Below, in pieces: positions 15,646 to 60,538 of a stretch of 64,000 bases of DNA. Source of the stretch: Actinomycetota bacterium (GTDB taxonomy: Bacteria; Actinomycetota; UBA4738; HRBIN12); NCBI GenBank assembly GCA_005884925.1, contig VAYU01000062.1, forward strand, positions 1-64,000, in the 5' to 3' direction. How positions within the stretch are numbered: position 1 is the stretch's first letter; the number at the start of each line of letters is the position of its first letter. Made by a program: the position numbers and the translations under genes. The notes below the pieces were generated by a model that saw only the letters and a list, made by a program, of their open reading frames with translations, had not been told where the DNA came from and ran no database searches.

Positions 15646-16050
<405 letters not shown>

Positions 16051-26399: not shown

Positions 26400-26569
26400 C
26401 CCTGCCGACATCGTCGCTCGAAAAGCAGGCGCTCACGGAGATCGAGCGGATCCTGCGACCTGGCGGGCGGGTCTCGATGGCCGATCTGACGGTCGAGGGA
26501 GAACTACCGCCGAAGATCGCGAACAACCACAGCGCCTTGGCCGGGCGTTCGCGTTTACGGGCTCGCTAG
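26400..26569 (+). pseudogene. Fragment of a SAM methyltransferase (ArsM/UbiE type)
   Basis: A 55-residue stretch reads LEKQALTEIERILRPGGRV then SMADLTVEGELPPKIANNHSA, the post-motif III part of type 11 methyltransferases such as arsenite methyltransferase. Motif I, the SAM site and a start codon are all missing, and the frame stops after RSRLRAR. It is a small relic squeezed between two minus-strand genes; its last 15 bases overlap the end of the selenoprotein candidate. Confidence 0.6.
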
Positions 26570-27127
26570 AACGTCCTTGAGCTGGGAGACGATCTCTGCC
26601 GGCTTTACGTACATGACGCCGCCGTGCTCCATGGCGCCGTAGTCCCTCACCCAATCGATCTTTCCGTCGGATCCGACGAGGAAGAACGTGTGGCCTGGCT
26701 CATTCGTCGCCATCATCCAAGCGGGGGTCCCGTACTTCAGCCAGACCGTGTTACCTATGTCCGAGAGCATCGGAACCGTCACATCCAGTGCGCCGCCTTC
26801 TTTCTGCCAGGCGGTCACCGGATCCGGCGAGATCGCGAGCAGCTCGATACCGAGTCTCTTGAACGCTTCGTCGTTCTGCAGGTCGACCACCTGCTGCATG
26901 CAGCCACCTCAGCCAGGGCCCATGCTGAAGTAGAGCAACACGGGCTTCCCCACGTAGTCGGACAGCGAAACGGTGCCGCCGCTCGCGGACCTGAGCGAGA
27001 ACGTGGGGGCAGTGTCCCCGACGGCGATCGGGGTCGCCTCCGAGCTCGACGAACTGGTCTGCCGTGTACACCCCGCTCCCACGAACGAGAAGGCGATGGC
27101 CGCGGCGACCAACATCTGTCGTTTCAT
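26555..27127 (-). CDS. Predicted selenocysteine-containing thioredoxin-fold lipoprotein (redoxin, UxxC)
   Basis: One frame runs through an in-frame TGA at 26911-26909 and encodes 190 residues with Sec at position 73. N-terminus: hydrophobic signal (AAAIAFSFVGAGC) with a lipobox-like end. Then a redoxin/AhpC-TSA domain: VGDTAPTFSLRSASGGTVSLSDYVGKPVLLYFSMGPG, then U-G-G-C, then MQQVVDLQ, LLAISPDPVTAWQ and HTFFLVGSDGKIDWV. TGA stands exactly where the first active-site cysteine belongs, and Cys76 completes UxxC. The start overlaps the stop of the upstream CopCD gene (ATGA). The hairpin after the TGA (separate entry) fits a bacterial SECIS. Alternative: a nonsense mutation splitting a cysteine protein, but flanking sequence on both sides is intact. 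Confidence 0.82.
26878..26894 (-). promoter_or_regulatory. Candidate bacterial SECIS hairpin
   Basis: Fifteen bases after the TGA starts a stem GCAGGT / ACCTGC (6 bp) with apical loop GGTCG; one further pair follows after an A-A mismatch. The first loop bases are GG, 20 bases past the TGA, within the 16-37 base window known for bacterial SECIS elements, and GGUC is also the loop core in E. coli formate dehydrogenase mRNA. It would bind SelB. The RNA fold is by eye. Confidence 0.7.
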
Positions 27128-29196
27128 GCGTTCGCTCCCTCCGGTGGTCCGATCGAGATAGGTGCGTCGAAGGCGGAGTACCGCTGGTTCATGAAATGGC
27201 CCTGGGCACGCATCTCGCTGCGTCGAACGAGCCCCGTCGGATCGACCCACAAACGGAACCAATAGGCGGCGCTTCCAAGCGGTCCGTAGAACGAGAGGAT
27301 CGTGGTGTCTACCCCATCGACGTGTGCTGTGCCGACTATCCGGGGATCGATGATGCGGTCCGGCACATAATCCCAGACGAACGAGAGCACCGGGAAAGGT
27401 GGTTCCCCGCGGTCCACGATCCAGCCAGCACGCGGCGCCCTTTCGATGTACTCGGTCCCCCCCGTCCACACGATCTTGAAGCCGCCTGTCGAACGAGCCC
27501 GCATCTGGTCCGGAGCGCGACACATGTACACCGTGCGCAGCGTGTCGGTTCCGGAGTCGAGGGATTGGTTCAGTTGATAGGACGTCAGTGCGTGCATGCG
27601 TTGCTCCGCTTTCGCGAGGAGCTGTGCTCCGTCGGCGGCTGGCAGCGTTGGCACGTTGAAGGATGCGACGCTGATCCCTGAGCCGCCGACGCGCACCTGG
27701 ATACGGTCCCCGCCAGACAGATCCACGGCCGCCCGGCGGCACGCTGTCCCGCACGTATCGAGCGCGACGCTTCGCTCGTCGATCGACAGATCGACGGGGA
27801 CAGCTCGCTCGCCTCGAAGCGGCAGCACGTAGACGAAGAGGTCGTTCCGACCCGGCTCGCCGGGACTAAGCGTGAGACCCACGAGTGTCGTCCCGGCGCG
27901 GCCTCCGAGCGTGAGATCGCCCGCCTCGGGCAGGCCCGGTCCCTGAGCCGCCATGCCGACGGCTTTCTCGGCCTCGCTCGATCGAGCCGGAGGCAGCGGG
28001 TACGCGGCGAGGAGCACGGCTGCTGCGGTGACCCCGAGCACCAAAGCAGACTCGAGCCTCGGTGCGACGAGCCGGCGCCGCCAGGCGAGCACGGACAGTG
28101 CCACCATCACGACGACGAACAGGCTCTTCACGAGAAGCGTCACACCGTACGAAGAGGCGAATACCTCGTGGACCGAGCCGACCTCCTGCGCTCCTCGAAG
28201 AAGGCCGGCCATCGCGGTGAGCGTGAACGCCCCCAGCGCAACGGGCGTGAATCGTCGGAGCAGGGAGCGGCCCTCCACGCTTGACCAGCCACCCGGCGGG
28301 TGTTGCAACGCGAGGGCGAGGACTCCGCCCGCCCAGACCGCTGCCGCTCCGACGTGCACCGCCTCGATGGAGACGCCCCACGGCACGGCCTCGGCGTGTC
28401 CCGCTGCGGCGAGCGCAACGATCGAAGCCGCCACCGCCCACGCCGTGGACCTCGAGCGCCGCCGAGCCAGCAACGATGCGAAGAGCTCGAGCGCCGGGCG
28501 GATCAAGCGCGCGACGCCGGACACGCCCGTCGTGAGGTAGGACGCGACGGCGCCCGGTGAGACACCGCGGGCCGCGGAGATCGCTTCCGCCGACACGACC
28601 GCGATCCCCGCGGCGGCGGCGACCGTGAGCGGAACGACAGGACGCGAACGGACCCAACCGAGCGGAGGTTCCCGCCGCGCCAACCACCCGAGCAGCAGGA
28701 GCCCGGTCGTGAGGAAGAGCCCGAGGTCCTCGACGGCGCGGGCGATCGAGATCAGTAGATCGGTCGTCCGAGGTGATGTGGAGACACCTTCGTCTGTCTG
28801 GGGATCGACCGGCACCCCAACCCCGAACGCGAAGGATCCGGACAAGGTGTGGCCATCCAGGAGGCTGACCGTGGTCCACGAGACCCGATACTCCCCGGGG
28901 GTATCCGTCGCGAGCTGCACCGCGATCTCCTCCGGACCGACGACCGTGCCGCTCACATCGCTCCCACCCGGTGTGCTTACCGACGCGCCAGAGAGCCGAA
29001 CGTTCACAGGCTCGGAGAACCGCATCGTCACGGCGCCCGGAGCCGAAGCCAGTTCGGCGCCCGGCTCCGGGGTCGACGAAAGGAGACCGGCGTGGGCGAA
29101 CGCGGCCATCGGGAGCGCCAGCGGGAGTCCCGTCGCGATCGCGAGCGCGAGGAGGATGCGCCTGGCGTTCGTCAGCCGGCGCCCGGGCACCAACAT
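27124..29196 (-). CDS. CopC-CopD fusion with C-terminal LolA-like domain (copy 2)
   Basis: 690 residues. After a signal peptide (LLALAIATGLPLALPMAAFA) the mature protein begins with His in AHAGLLSSTPEPGAEL, the CopC copper-binding N-terminus, and continues with VTMRFSEPVNVRL. The middle is CopD-like with about eight membrane segments; conserved histidines appear in AAAGHAEAVPWGVSIEAVHVGAAAVW. The C-terminal 200 residues (QLLAKAEQRMHALTSYQLNQ to DLRVSEMRAQGHFMNQ-like end) resemble LolA/LppX lipid-carrier folds. It would bind copper outside and move it across the membrane. Its TGATG junction with copy 1 and ATGA junction with the selenoprotein indicate one operon. A GTG one codon earlier is also possible. 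Confidence 0.88.
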   Translation of the reverse strand: MLVPGRRLTNARRILLALAIATGLPLALPMAAFAHAGLLSSTPEPGAELASAPGAVTMRFSEPVNVRLSGASVSTPGGSDVSGTVVGPEEIAVQLATDTPGEYRVSWTTVSLLDGHTLSGSFAFGVGVPVDPQTDEGVSTSPRTTDLLISIARAVEDLGLFLTTGLLLLGWLARREPPLGWVRSRPVVPLTVAAAAGIAVVSAEAISAARGVSPGAVASYLTTGVSGVARLIRPALELFASLLARRRSRSTAWAVAASIVALAAAGHAEAVPWGVSIEAVHVGAAAVWAGGVLALALQHPPGGWSSVEGRSLLRRFTPVALGAFTLTAMAGLLRGAQEVGSVHEVFASSYGVTLLVKSLFVVVMVALSVLAWRRRLVAPRLESALVLGVTAAAVLLAAYPLPPARSSEAEKAVGMAAQGPGLPEAGDLTLGGRAGTTLVGLTLSPGEPGRNDLFVYVLPLRGERAVPVDLSIDERSVALDTCGTACRRAAVDLSGGDRIQVRVGGSGISVASFNVPTLPAADGAQLLAKAEQRMHALTSYQLNQSLDSGTDTLRTVYMCRAPDQMRARSTGGFKIVWTGGTEYIERAPRAGWIVDRGEPPFPVLSFVWDYVPDRIIDPRIVGTAHVDGVDTTILSFYGPLGSAAYWFRLWVDPTGLVRRSEMRAQGHFMNQRYSAFDAPISIGPPEGANA

Positions 29197-31295
29197 CACC
29201 CCGTGGCACCCGGGCCGGTCGGCGGCGCAATCGTGATCGGCGCGTCGAAGTCGTAATACCGGTGGTCCATGAAGTGTCCGGGGGCCCGCATCTGCGCACG
29301 ATGGACGAACCCTTTGGCGTCGACCCAGAGGTCGAACCAGACGGGCAGCTCCTGGTCTCCGCCGGCGAACGCGATCTCCGTGCTCGGCATCCCATCGACC
29401 ACGGCGCTCCCGACGATCCGCACGTCCCGGTACGGCTTGAACGAATCCCAGATATAGGTCGGAACCGGCAGGAATGGCGTTCCCTTCTCGACCTGCCAGC
29501 TACCGTTGTCCTCTCGCAGGTACCTCGTGTCGCCGATCCATACCGTTCGGCCCGAGCTGCCGGGCTCGCGGACTTGCGACTCGAACGAGTTGGGCGCCGC
29601 GAAGGCATAGGTCGAGTCAACGGTCGTCCCGAGCCCCGACGTGAGGGTCTCGTCGAGCCGATAGGTCGTCAGGGCGCCCATCGTTGTTTGCATCTTCTTC
29701 AGCAGAAGCTCACCTGAGGGCGCGGGGAGGTTGGGGATGCGGAAGACCGCACGGCCACCCGCGGGTGTGCCGACGTCGACCGTGACACGATCACCTCCGC
29801 GCAGCTTCGCCCGGCCCTTCCGACACGTGTCGGCGCATCGTGTGAGCGTGATGGGTTCGCCGTTCACGGTTGCCTTGACTGGAATGGCGGCAGTCGCGGC
29901 GGGACCATCCAGGCTCTGGACGTAGATCGTCATCTCGTTCGAACCGGGCGCTCCTGGCGAGAGGGTGAGACCGACGAGCACGGGCCCGGCGTGCGCCCCA
30001 AGCGTGAGGGCGCCACTGGCGGGGATGGGCGCGGCCGAGGTGGGGGCGAGCGTGTGGCCCACGGCTGCTTCGACCTGTCGGGCGGGAGGGAGCGGGAAGG
30101 CGGATAGAAGGGCCGCCGCCCCGATCACGAGCGCAGTGGCCAACGCTTCGCCCTTGGGAAAGATGGCGATCCTGCGCCAGGCGAGCACCGAGGCTTGGAC
30201 CATCGTGAGCACCAGGAGGATCTTCACAACGAGGACCAGCCCGTAGAGGGAGCCGAACAGCCGGGCCCAGCCACCCACCTCCTGGACGCCGCGGATCGCG
30301 CCCGTGCCGACCGTAAACGCGAAGGAGGCCAGTCCGACGGGCGTGAACCGATCGAGGAGCGTGCGGCCCCCTTCGCCGAGCCACCGATCGGGAGGTCGCA
30401 GCAGCGCCAGGGCCAGGATCCCGCCTGCCCAGAGTCCGGCCGAAAGGACATGGACGGCCTCGACCGTCACACCCCACGCGCGGGGCTGGATCGCGGCGGC
30501 ATGTCCCGCGGCCGCCAGCGCGATGGTCGCCGCGACAGCCAGCGGCGCCTGAGCACGAGTCCATCGCCACGCGGCGAGGATCCCGACACCCTCGAGGACC
30601 ACCCTCGCGAGTCGAGAGCATCCCGGTAGTCCGGTGGTGAGGTACGCGACGACGGCTCCGACCCCTAGGGACGGCGCCGCGCGAAGCGCTTCGCCCAGGG
30701 TGACCGCGACGCCCCCGGCGAAAGCAAGAGCGAACACGAGAAGGGTCGGCGTCCTGACCCACGTGATCGGCGGATCCCTCCGTGCGAGGCGACCGAGGAG
30801 CAGGAGGCCGATGACCAGGAGCAGGCTCGTGTCCTCGACGAGGCGTCCGACCGCGATCAGTAGATCCCAGCCGGTCGGCGCATCGGTCGTCCCGCTCACC
30901 GCGCCGGCGCCTGGCGAGACACCGACCCCGAACCGGAACGAACCGGAGAGCGTGTGCCCGTCGACCAGGCTGACGGTCGTCCAGTCGACCTCGTACACGC
31001 CGGGCTGCCCCGACGTGAGATCGACGACCATCCCGTCGTCTCCGACGACGTTGCCTGCCACCGACGACCCATCGGGCGTTCGGACGGCGACCCGCGACAG
31101 GCGCGCGTTCAGAGGCTCGGAGAACGTGACGCTGACCTGACCGGGGGCGCTGCCCAGGATCGCTCCGGGCTGCGGCGTCGAAGAAACGAACCCGGCGTGC
31201 GCGGATGCGGTCGCCGGCAGGATCACAACCATGATCGCACCGAGCACGAGGGCGCGTCGCAGGCGCCGGATCATGCCCTTCCCCCGACGGTTCAT
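29196..31295 (-). CDS. CopC-CopD fusion with C-terminal LolA-like domain (copy 1)
   Basis: 699 residues with the same three parts as its neighbour: signal peptide, CopC domain starting AHAGFVSSTPQPGAIL and QVSVTFSEPLNARLS, about eight CopD membrane segments with AAAGHAAAIQPRAWGVTVEAVHVLSAGLWAGG, and a C-terminal LolA-like domain (LLLKKMQTTMGALTTYRLDETL to HRAQMRAPGHFMDHRYYDFDAPI). A CxxxC pair (RCADTCRKG) lies in the external part and is shared with copy 2. The ATG at 31295 overlaps the CcdA stop (ATGA). The two copies are clear but old tandem duplicates. Which metal and cargo the LolA-like part handles is unknown. Confidence 0.88.
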   Translation of the reverse strand: MNRRGKGMIRRLRRALVLGAIMVVILPATASAHAGFVSSTPQPGAILGSAPGQVSVTFSEPLNARLSRVAVRTPDGSSVAGNVVGDDGMVVDLTSGQPGVYEVDWTTVSLVDGHTLSGSFRFGVGVSPGAGAVSGTTDAPTGWDLLIAVGRLVEDTSLLLVIGLLLLGRLARRDPPITWVRTPTLLVFALAFAGGVAVTLGEALRAAPSLGVGAVVAYLTTGLPGCSRLARVVLEGVGILAAWRWTRAQAPLAVAATIALAAAGHAAAIQPRAWGVTVEAVHVLSAGLWAGGILALALLRPPDRWLGEGGRTLLDRFTPVGLASFAFTVGTGAIRGVQEVGGWARLFGSLYGLVLVVKILLVLTMVQASVLAWRRIAIFPKGEALATALVIGAAALLSAFPLPPARQVEAAVGHTLAPTSAAPIPASGALTLGAHAGPVLVGLTLSPGAPGSNEMTIYVQSLDGPAATAAIPVKATVNGEPITLTRCADTCRKGRAKLRGGDRVTVDVGTPAGGRAVFRIPNLPAPSGELLLKKMQTTMGALTTYRLDETLTSGLGTTVDSTYAFAAPNSFESQVREPGSSGRTVWIGDTRYLREDNGSWQVEKGTPFLPVPTYIWDSFKPYRDVRIVGSAVVDGMPSTEIAFAGGDQELPVWFDLWVDAKGFVHRAQMRAPGHFMDHRYYDFDAPITIAPPTGPGATG

Positions 31296-32020
31296 AGCGG
31301 TGGCCATCCCTCCCGAGCGAATATCCGGATGAGTGGTGTAAAGAGCCGGACCCACTGTCCGGCGATCATCAGCACACCCATCAGGATGAGGACTCCCCCA
31401 CCGACGAGCTCGATCGCCCATCCGTGCCTGCGGAGCCACGCGAAGAGCTTCCCGGTCCTTGCCACCGCGAACGCAAGCAGCAGGAACGGGACACCGAGGC
31501 CCAGGGAGTAGACGAACAGCAGGGCTGCCCCGCGCCACGCGCCGTCTACGGTTGCCGCAGCCGCCAGGATGGCGGCCAGCACGGGCCCTACGCACGGTGT
31601 CCATCCGATCGCGAACGCCATGCCGAGCGGCATCGCACCCGCAGGGCCGGACTGGACCCTGGTCAGGTCGAGTCGCCGCTCCCGATAAAGGATGGGCACC
31701 CGCAGGACCCTCATCGTCGCGAGTCCCATGACGATCACGAAGACCCCGGCGATCCTCATGAAGATCAACCGGTGGAAGAGGATCAGCGAACCGAGACCGG
31801 ACGCCGCTGCCCCCATGAGCGTGAACGTGACGACGAACCCGGCGACGAACAAGCTCGCGGCGAGCATCGTGCGGCTCCTGAGGAGGATGGCCTTCGGACG
31901 TGTCGTGGCCACGCCGCTCACGTACGACACGTAGCCGGGCATCAGCGGGAGGCAGCACGGGGAGGAGAACGAGATCAGGCCCGCGACGAACGCCAGGGCG
32001 AAGGGTCCGAGGACGCTCAT
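31292..32020 (-). CDS. ccdA: CcdA/DsbD-type thiol-disulfide transmembrane carrier
   Basis: 242 residues with six to seven membrane segments. The redox cysteines are in the expected places: SSPCCLPLMPGYVSY in the first segment and GWTPCVGPVLAAIL in the fourth. CcdA passes electrons from cytoplasmic thioredoxin to external thiol proteins, here presumably TlpA next door and perhaps the Sec protein. Its ATG overlaps the TlpA stop and its TGA overlaps the CopCD start, both by ATGA. The start is therefore set by the overlap. Confidence 0.94.
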   Translation of the reverse strand: MSVLGPFALAFVAGLISFSSPCCLPLMPGYVSYVSGVATTRPKAILLRSRTMLAASLFVAGFVVTFTLMGAAASGLGSLILFHRLIFMRIAGVFVIVMGLATMRVLRVPILYRERRLDLTRVQSGPAGAMPLGMAFAIGWTPCVGPVLAAILAAAATVDGAWRGAALLFVYSLGLGVPFLLLAFAVARTGKLFAWLRRHGWAIELVGGGVLILMGVLMIAGQWVRLFTPLIRIFAREGWPPL

Positions 32021-32598
32021 GCGCTCGGTCCTTGAACCACGGTCTCGAGGGTCGATCGCAGGATGTCCGCGTTCAGGTACCCAACGAACCGATACCGTAG
32101 TTGGCCTTGCGCATCGATCACGAAGGTGGTCGGCATCCCGAACAGACCGTAGGGCGCGGCTAGCCTTCCGCTGGCGTCGGTGACGCTCGGGTAACCGAGA
32201 CGGAACTCGGAGACGAACGCTCGGCCCGCCGCATCGTCGTCACGCTCGTCGACCCCGACGAAGCGCACGCCCTTGGATCGATAATCCTGCCAGGTCTGCT
32301 CCAGGCCCGGTGCCTCGATCCGGCACGGGGCACACCACGAGCCCCAGAAGTTGAGGACCGCAACGTGACCTCGTAAGGAAGAAAGCGTGATCGGCCTTCC
32401 GCCTTGCAATGAGGGAAGCGTGAAGTCCGGTGCTGACCCCTGTTGGATCTCCGCCTTTGCTTGGTAGTCGGCGACGCTGAACCCGAGCACGCCCTGCGTC
32501 TGGCGGGACCTGTACTCGGCCGCCGCGATCCCGACGATGAGGGAGAAGACCGACAAAATGACGAGCCAGATGACGACCCCCCTCGTTCTCGCGTTCAT
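32017..32598 (-). CDS. TlpA/ResA-like membrane-anchored thioredoxin
   Basis: 193 residues. One N-terminal anchor (VVIWLVILSVFSLIVGIAAA) is followed by an external thioredoxin fold with the active site NFWGSWCAPCR, and the cis-proline in GLFGMPTTFVIDAQG. TlpA/ResA proteins keep copper- or heme-binding thiols reduced using electrons from CcdA. Co-translation with ccdA makes that partnership likely. It is a classic CxxC version, in contrast to the UxxC protein at the operon's other end. Confidence 0.93.
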   Translation of the reverse strand: MNARTRGVVIWLVILSVFSLIVGIAAAEYRSRQTQGVLGFSVADYQAKAEIQQGSAPDFTLPSLQGGRPITLSSLRGHVAVLNFWGSWCAPCRIEAPGLEQTWQDYRSKGVRFVGVDERDDDAAGRAFVSEFRLGYPSVTDASGRLAAPYGLFGMPTTFVIDAQGQLRYRFVGYLNADILRSTLETVVQGPSA

Positions 32599-39067: not shown

Positions 39068-39143
39068 TGGTGGGCGCTGAGGGACTCGAACCCCCGACCT
39101 TCGCCTTGTAAGGGCGACGCTCTTCCAGCTGAGCTAAGCGCCC
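39068..39143 (-). tRNA. tRNA-Val (anticodon TAC)
   Basis: Full cloverleaf: acceptor GGGCGCT pairs with the 3' AGCGCCC, D arm GCTC/GAGC, anticodon arm TCGCC-CTTACAA-GGCGA with anticodon TAC, T arm GGGGG-TTCGAGT-CCCTC, discriminator A and an encoded CCA. The 5' end overlaps the final codons of the zinc-ribbon gene by about 10 bases. Confidence 0.95.
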
Positions 39144-60461: not shown

Positions 60462-60538
60462 TGGTGGGGCGGGCAGGACTTGAACCTGCGACCGGAGGAT
60501 TATGAGTCCCCTGCTCTGACCGACTGAGCTACCGCCCC
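60462..60538 (-). tRNA. tRNA with CAT anticodon (elongator Met, or Ile2)
   Basis: Cloverleaf: acceptor GGGGCGG with CCGCCCC, D arm GCTC/GAGC, anticodon loop CTCATAA, T arm GCAGG-TTCAAGT-CCTGC, discriminator A and encoded CCA. CAT without the initiator's C1:A72-type mismatch means elongator Met or, if lysidine-modified, Ile2. The GGACTCATAATCC anticodon arm occurs in both types, so I leave it open. Confidence 0.92.

Follow-up and report, generated by a model that had tools for sequence, protein, structure and literature searches.

The window, a 64,000-nucleotide stretch of DNA from an Actinomycetota genome (2.7 Mb, 92% complete), contains a run of minus-strand genes in the order tlpA, ccdA, copCD, copCD and, at the end, a redoxin gene with an in-frame TGA that is almost certainly a selenoprotein gene. 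The ends of these genes overlap or are closely spaced. The first gene (32017..32598) encodes a TlpA/ResA-like thioredoxin with a WCAPC motif (99.8 bits for ResA, below the cut-off), and the second (31292..32020) encodes a CcdA/DsbD-type membrane electron carrier that matches DsbD-related models, also below the cut-off. Two fusions of CopC and CopD follow. The first (29196..31190, start approximate) matches CopD with 56 bits and CopC with 40 bits, and the second (27124..29199) matches CopC with 57 bits and CopD with 44 bits; the TGA stop codon of the second overlaps the start codon of the last gene (ATGA). Each of the tandem fusions (27124-31190) has an extra region C-terminal of CopD, and the pair apparently reflects a duplication. 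The window's minus strand also carries a class A RNase P RNA (15647-16043) and two tRNA genes (39071-39143 and 60465-60538).

The last gene (27127..26555, minus strand) is a single frame that, when translated through one TGA, encodes a 190-residue lipoprotein redoxin and ends with TAA. The TGA (26911..26909) corresponds to residue 73, within the motif F-S-M-G-P-G-U-G-G-C (U73-G-G-C76). The product starts with MKRQMLVAAAIAFSFVGAGC, continues further on with LLYFSMGPG-U-GGCMQQVVDLQ, and has VLASP at its C-terminus. There is a plausible ribosome-binding site, GGAGGGAG, 5′ of the ATG (27128..27152), and a similar AAGGAG is found in two of the genomes with orthologs (G011 and G016). A signal peptide with a lipobox (27068..27127) puts the acylated cysteine at residue 20, which is invariant in five actinobacterial orthologs; a similar lipobox can be made out by eye in Chloroflexota sequences, L066 and L071 among them. 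Pfam matches to AhpC-TSA (77 bits) and Redoxin (56 bits), both above the gathering score, run across the TGA. A sequence-only reading of this DNA had described a signal-bearing lipoprotein of the UxxC redoxin type, with one TGA interrupting the frame at the first active-site cysteine of a thioredoxin-fold protein. The translation, the signal peptide, the Pfam matches and the CxxC homologs agree with that description.

Is the TGA conserved? A genome scan found 24 orthologous sequences that cover the TGA region in Actinomycetota and Chloroflexota (25 with the window gene), and the U73 codon is TGA in 24/24 and Cys in 0/24. Five of the orthologs are from Actinobacteria/Actinomycetota or their kin, one (L073) is labelled Acidimicrobiia, and the rest are from Chloroflexota; the carrier organisms are MAGs. 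Bacterium HR12, among the actinobacterial carriers or their kin, belongs to the same family as the window's organism. Across 397 Actinomycetota genomes, the best six matches (231–247 bits) all have the TGA, and the next matches, at 133 bits and lower, lack a stop at this position, with Cys wherever this was checked. Homologs therefore show neither a true stop nor random residues here: every ortholog has TGA, and more distant homologs have Cys. Purifying selection also acts on the sequence beyond the TGA, with dN/dS values of 0.10–0.38 against four orthologs, which bears out the earlier statement that the C-terminal part shows no decay.

These data bear on the simplest alternative, namely that an ordinary CxxC redoxin gene has acquired a nonsense mutation or a sequencing error and is a pseudogene or an artefact. 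An in-frame TGA is by default a stop, and the genome has a second, truncated copy of the 3′ part of the gene. Nonetheless, the TGA occupies the same codon in 25 separate assemblies from two phyla, the downstream sequence is constrained, and both the selenocysteine machinery and a conserved hairpin are present (see below), so this alternative is excluded for practical purposes. The truncated copy lies on another contig (C57:54588-54767), covers residues 131–190 without the TGA region, and is 88% identical to the window gene in protein and 90% in DNA; the same stretch also has terminase-like and DNA methylase-like genes, by eye. In a genome of the same genus (G002), the last residues of a homolog are found at a contig edge (C72:1-87), and this genome may carry the full homolog or a fragment. 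Two orthologs deserve separate mention. First, L071 (Chloroflexi RBG_19FT_COMBO_62_14, 2747-2758) has TGA at both redox positions, giving U-P-P-U, which suggests either a diselenide form or a sequencing error. Second, L073 (JAOSJK010000001.1), despite its Acidimicrobiia label, groups with and is syntenic with the Thermoflexus/Anaerolinea loci L067 and L072, and is either mislabelled or was transferred along with its neighbours.

A second alternative is that the TGA is read as some other amino acid, by genome-wide reassignment or by leaky readthrough. The frame would be open whichever residue the TGA encodes, but TGA terminates the adjacent copCD gene and, in genome G020, the ortholog of the window gene itself, so the code is not reassigned. 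In addition, the genome has a tRNA-Sec with the matching TCA anticodon, and the TGA falls exactly at the active-site Cys position of the relatives. Reassignment is rejected, and a reading of the TGA as another amino acid is very unlikely.

The nearest sequence relatives are CxxC redoxins of Actinomycetota (for example, L088 and L100), which have the motif at the same position. They differ from the window family in having Cys rather than Sec and in never forming the full hairpin, and they are a clade apart: the Sec group lies on one side of a branch with 99/98 support, and no Cys member falls inside it in the tree built with the nearest CxxC redoxins. That tree left out five distant Bcp-type peroxiredoxins; in the first tree, which included them, they fell within the Sec group at the end of a long branch, with open forks. 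The clade is apparently Sec-only in everything found, a small family of secreted redox proteins in two groups of uncultured bacteria from soil and water. Sec-only clades are unusual among thiol oxidoreductases, and this suggests that Sec is needed, not optional, in the window family.

Downstream of the TGA is a bacterial SECIS-like hairpin, GCAGGU-GGUCG-ACCUGC (26878..26894, minus strand). Its stem begins 14 nt after the TGA and its GGUCG loop begins 20 nt after it; the sequence-only reading was correct about the 6-bp stem and the loop but had placed the stem where the loop starts. The hairpin alone is weak evidence, because a 6/6 stem of identical geometry follows 12 of the 1326 TGA triplets in the window (0.9%). 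The folding energy of the region is not unusual (z = −0.04) and is thus uninformative, so the hairpin has to be judged on conservation. By that measure it is significant, because it is kept across the orthologs. All six pairs form in 18 of the 25 orthologous sequences and five of the six form in the other 7, with a G as the first or second loop base in every one, and this upholds the earlier identification of a SECIS hairpin that follows the loop rule. Overall, 95.3% of pair cells are kept in the 25 sequences, versus 17–34% when one arm is slid. The full stem is never seen in the nineteen Cys homologs, where 2–5 of the 6 pairs form.

The pattern of substitutions in the stem points the same way. 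In three of the six pairs both partners have changed, and covariation scores higher than in 500 of 500 shuffles. In the main covarying pair, the first position of a Val/Ile codon is matched to the free third position of an Asp codon: sequences with Val have GAC and those with Ile have GAT (a synonymous difference), with one G-U exception. L076 shows a double synonymous swap in the stem, with CAA...TTG in place of CAG...CTG. Synonymous difference is 0–0.40 in the hairpin codons versus 0.60–0.74 in the remaining 3′ part. The main pair changed independently just 2–4 times in the phylogeny, which leaves a formal sign test without power, so the covariation is supportive and not decisive alone. No listed SECIS element came up when the window was searched against Rfam.

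The window's genome encodes the machinery for inserting selenocysteine, whose absence would have refuted the sequence-only reading. Specifically, SelA scores 494 bits (cut-off 268), SelB 294 bits (cut-off 242) and SelD 368 bits, selA is directly upstream of selB, and a tRNA-Sec gene (selC) with a TCA anticodon is present. SelB is above the cut-off in 23/25 carrier genomes. It was not found above the cut-off in carriers L069 and L075, both MAGs, and tRNA-Sec was not detected in G011; these are probably assembly gaps. The machinery of the window's genome probably has a further client, a formate dehydrogenase-like gene (contig C25, 65401-66564) with an in-frame TGA in T-U-H-A-P, which contains the classical U-H-A-P motif. 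The assignment of the window gene as a selenoprotein gene rests on the TGA in 24/24 orthologs, the separate clade, the conserved hairpin, the purifying selection and the presence of this machinery. We put the probability that it is a selenoprotein with a redox function at roughly 90%.

To what extent is this selenoprotein new? Prx-like UxxC/UxxU selenoproteins are well established (PMC2398784, PMC1794560, PMC13188914, PMC9312934), and the earlier remark that UxxC redoxin selenoproteins are known in other bacteria is correct, as they have been catalogued (PMC2398784, PMC13188914). The claim of novelty therefore survives only for the subfamily. No NCBIfam model scores above its cut-off for the window protein, no model in a scan of all 25 members is named for or dedicated to the family, and the papers searched contain no description of this Actinomycetota/Chloroflexota subfamily or of its CopCD/TlpA/CcdA context. 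It is quite conceivable, at somewhat less than even odds, that the protein is a true selenoprotein that simply belongs to one of the catalogued groups, either “Prx-like 1 / Prx-like thiol:disulfide oxidoreductase” (UxxC/UxxU) or “Redoxin family protein” (UxxC), represented by WP_010940744.1 and HEU0032618.1, the latter being a Redoxin family protein (PMC13188914). This would affect novelty, not mechanism. The Pfam domains are identical, the same motif appears in PMC2398784 and PMC13188914, and the UxxU of L071 is a variant listed for the Prx-like group. On the other hand, the window protein is below all NCBIfam cut-offs, including that for SelL-related redox proteins (NF040769; 22.5 versus 120 bits), with which it shares the AhpC-like fold and which it matches weakly across the domain's first 70 residues.

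How does the window family compare with its known counterparts? With the Prx-like thiol:disulfide oxidoreductase selenoproteins (PF00578; “Prx-like 1” in PMC2398784; PMC13188914) it shares the Pfam family, UxxC, Cys homologs and a Sec-coding TGA, whereas it forms a Sec-only lipoprotein clade of Actinomycetota and Chloroflexota, a comparison made by domain and motif only. With the Redoxin family protein selenoprotein (PF08534, PMC13188914), compared by description only, it shares the Redoxin domain and UxxC. With ResA/TlpA oxidoreductases it shares a membrane-anchored extracytoplasmic thioredoxin fold, a CxxC-type centre and a CcdA partner, but it has Sec at the first Cys and scores 40 bits against a ResA (PRK03147) cut-off of 170. 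The window protein is thus a well-supported addition to a known kind of selenoprotein rather than a new system. Gene callers that treat TGA as a stop break the gene, and no NCBIfam model was found that would restore it. Uncultured Actinomycetota and Chloroflexota therefore probably contain wrongly annotated genes for a selenium-dependent envelope protein. The 25 sequences suffice to build an annotation model for the family.

The likely chemistry can be judged from the fold and the motif. An AlphaFold model of the window protein has a mean pLDDT of 86.9, and the PDB folds nearest to it are Bcp/AhpE-type peroxiredoxins; by sequence, the nearest are a peroxiredoxin-like protein and ResA. UxxC is the thioredoxin/ResA arrangement, and thiol-disulfide exchange is for that reason favoured over peroxidase activity, as far as sequence comparison can indicate. 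The proximity of the peroxiredoxin folds lends some weight to the opposite view, that the protein is a selenium-dependent hydroperoxide peroxidase and no thiol-disulfide exchanger. This is unlikely, at odds of about one to three, because an alignment to Prx places C76 on the peroxidatic Cys and pairs U73 with the Thr of TxxC, and because TlpA and CcdA are encoded in the same operon. Furthermore, known Sec-peroxiredoxins have a TxxU motif (PMC13188914), which the window protein lacks.

How might the protein work? SelB and selenocysteyl-tRNA, both of whose genes are in the genome, would insert selenocysteine at the TGA (26911..26909), guided by the downstream hairpin. The product would be exported and anchored as a lipoprotein, as its signal peptide and invariant Cys20 indicate, and its predicted peroxiredoxin/ResA-type thioredoxin fold would carry U73-x-x-C76 as a selenol-thiol redox centre. 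Because the gene ends a tlpA-ccdA-copCD-copCD operon, CcdA/TlpA would be the source of electrons, and, outside the membrane, the protein could use them to reduce disulfides in proteins that handle copper or assemble cytochrome oxidase. Judged from the gene neighbourhood, the likely function is extracytoplasmic redox chemistry tied to copper or oxidase assembly, which fits the actinobacterial cases; that such copper-handling or oxidase-assembly proteins are the actual targets is a more tentative proposal, which we hold as possible but somewhat improbable. The most complete form of this proposal is that as yet unmodelled, selenocysteine-only envelope lipoproteins (UPPC/UGGC redoxins) supply selenium-dependent reducing power to a CcdA/TlpA relay that serves extracytoplasmic copper delivery or cytochrome oxidase assembly in Actinomycetota. 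This is doubtful as a whole, although, if true, it would join selenium biology to copper biology.

Gene neighbourhoods in other carriers give a mixed picture. In G011, copCD is upstream of the ortholog too, and in G020 copCD, TlpA and CcdA-like genes are nearby. In G016, the ortholog is followed by TlpA and CcdA. The neighbours in G056 are COX1, a cation efflux gene, a DsbD-type membrane protein just under the Pfam cut-off, and TlpA. The Chloroflexota neighbours differ, and most members from that phylum lack the CopCD/TlpA/CcdA context, so the link to copper may be restricted to certain lineages. A functional operon context would provide a testable tie between selenium and extracytoplasmic copper or the assembly of respiratory enzymes. 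Among the Chloroflexota, a heavy-metal P-type ATPase gene and a cytochrome c gene adjoin the ortholog at L060, and a cytochrome c gene also adjoins the ortholog at the actinomycetotal locus L062.
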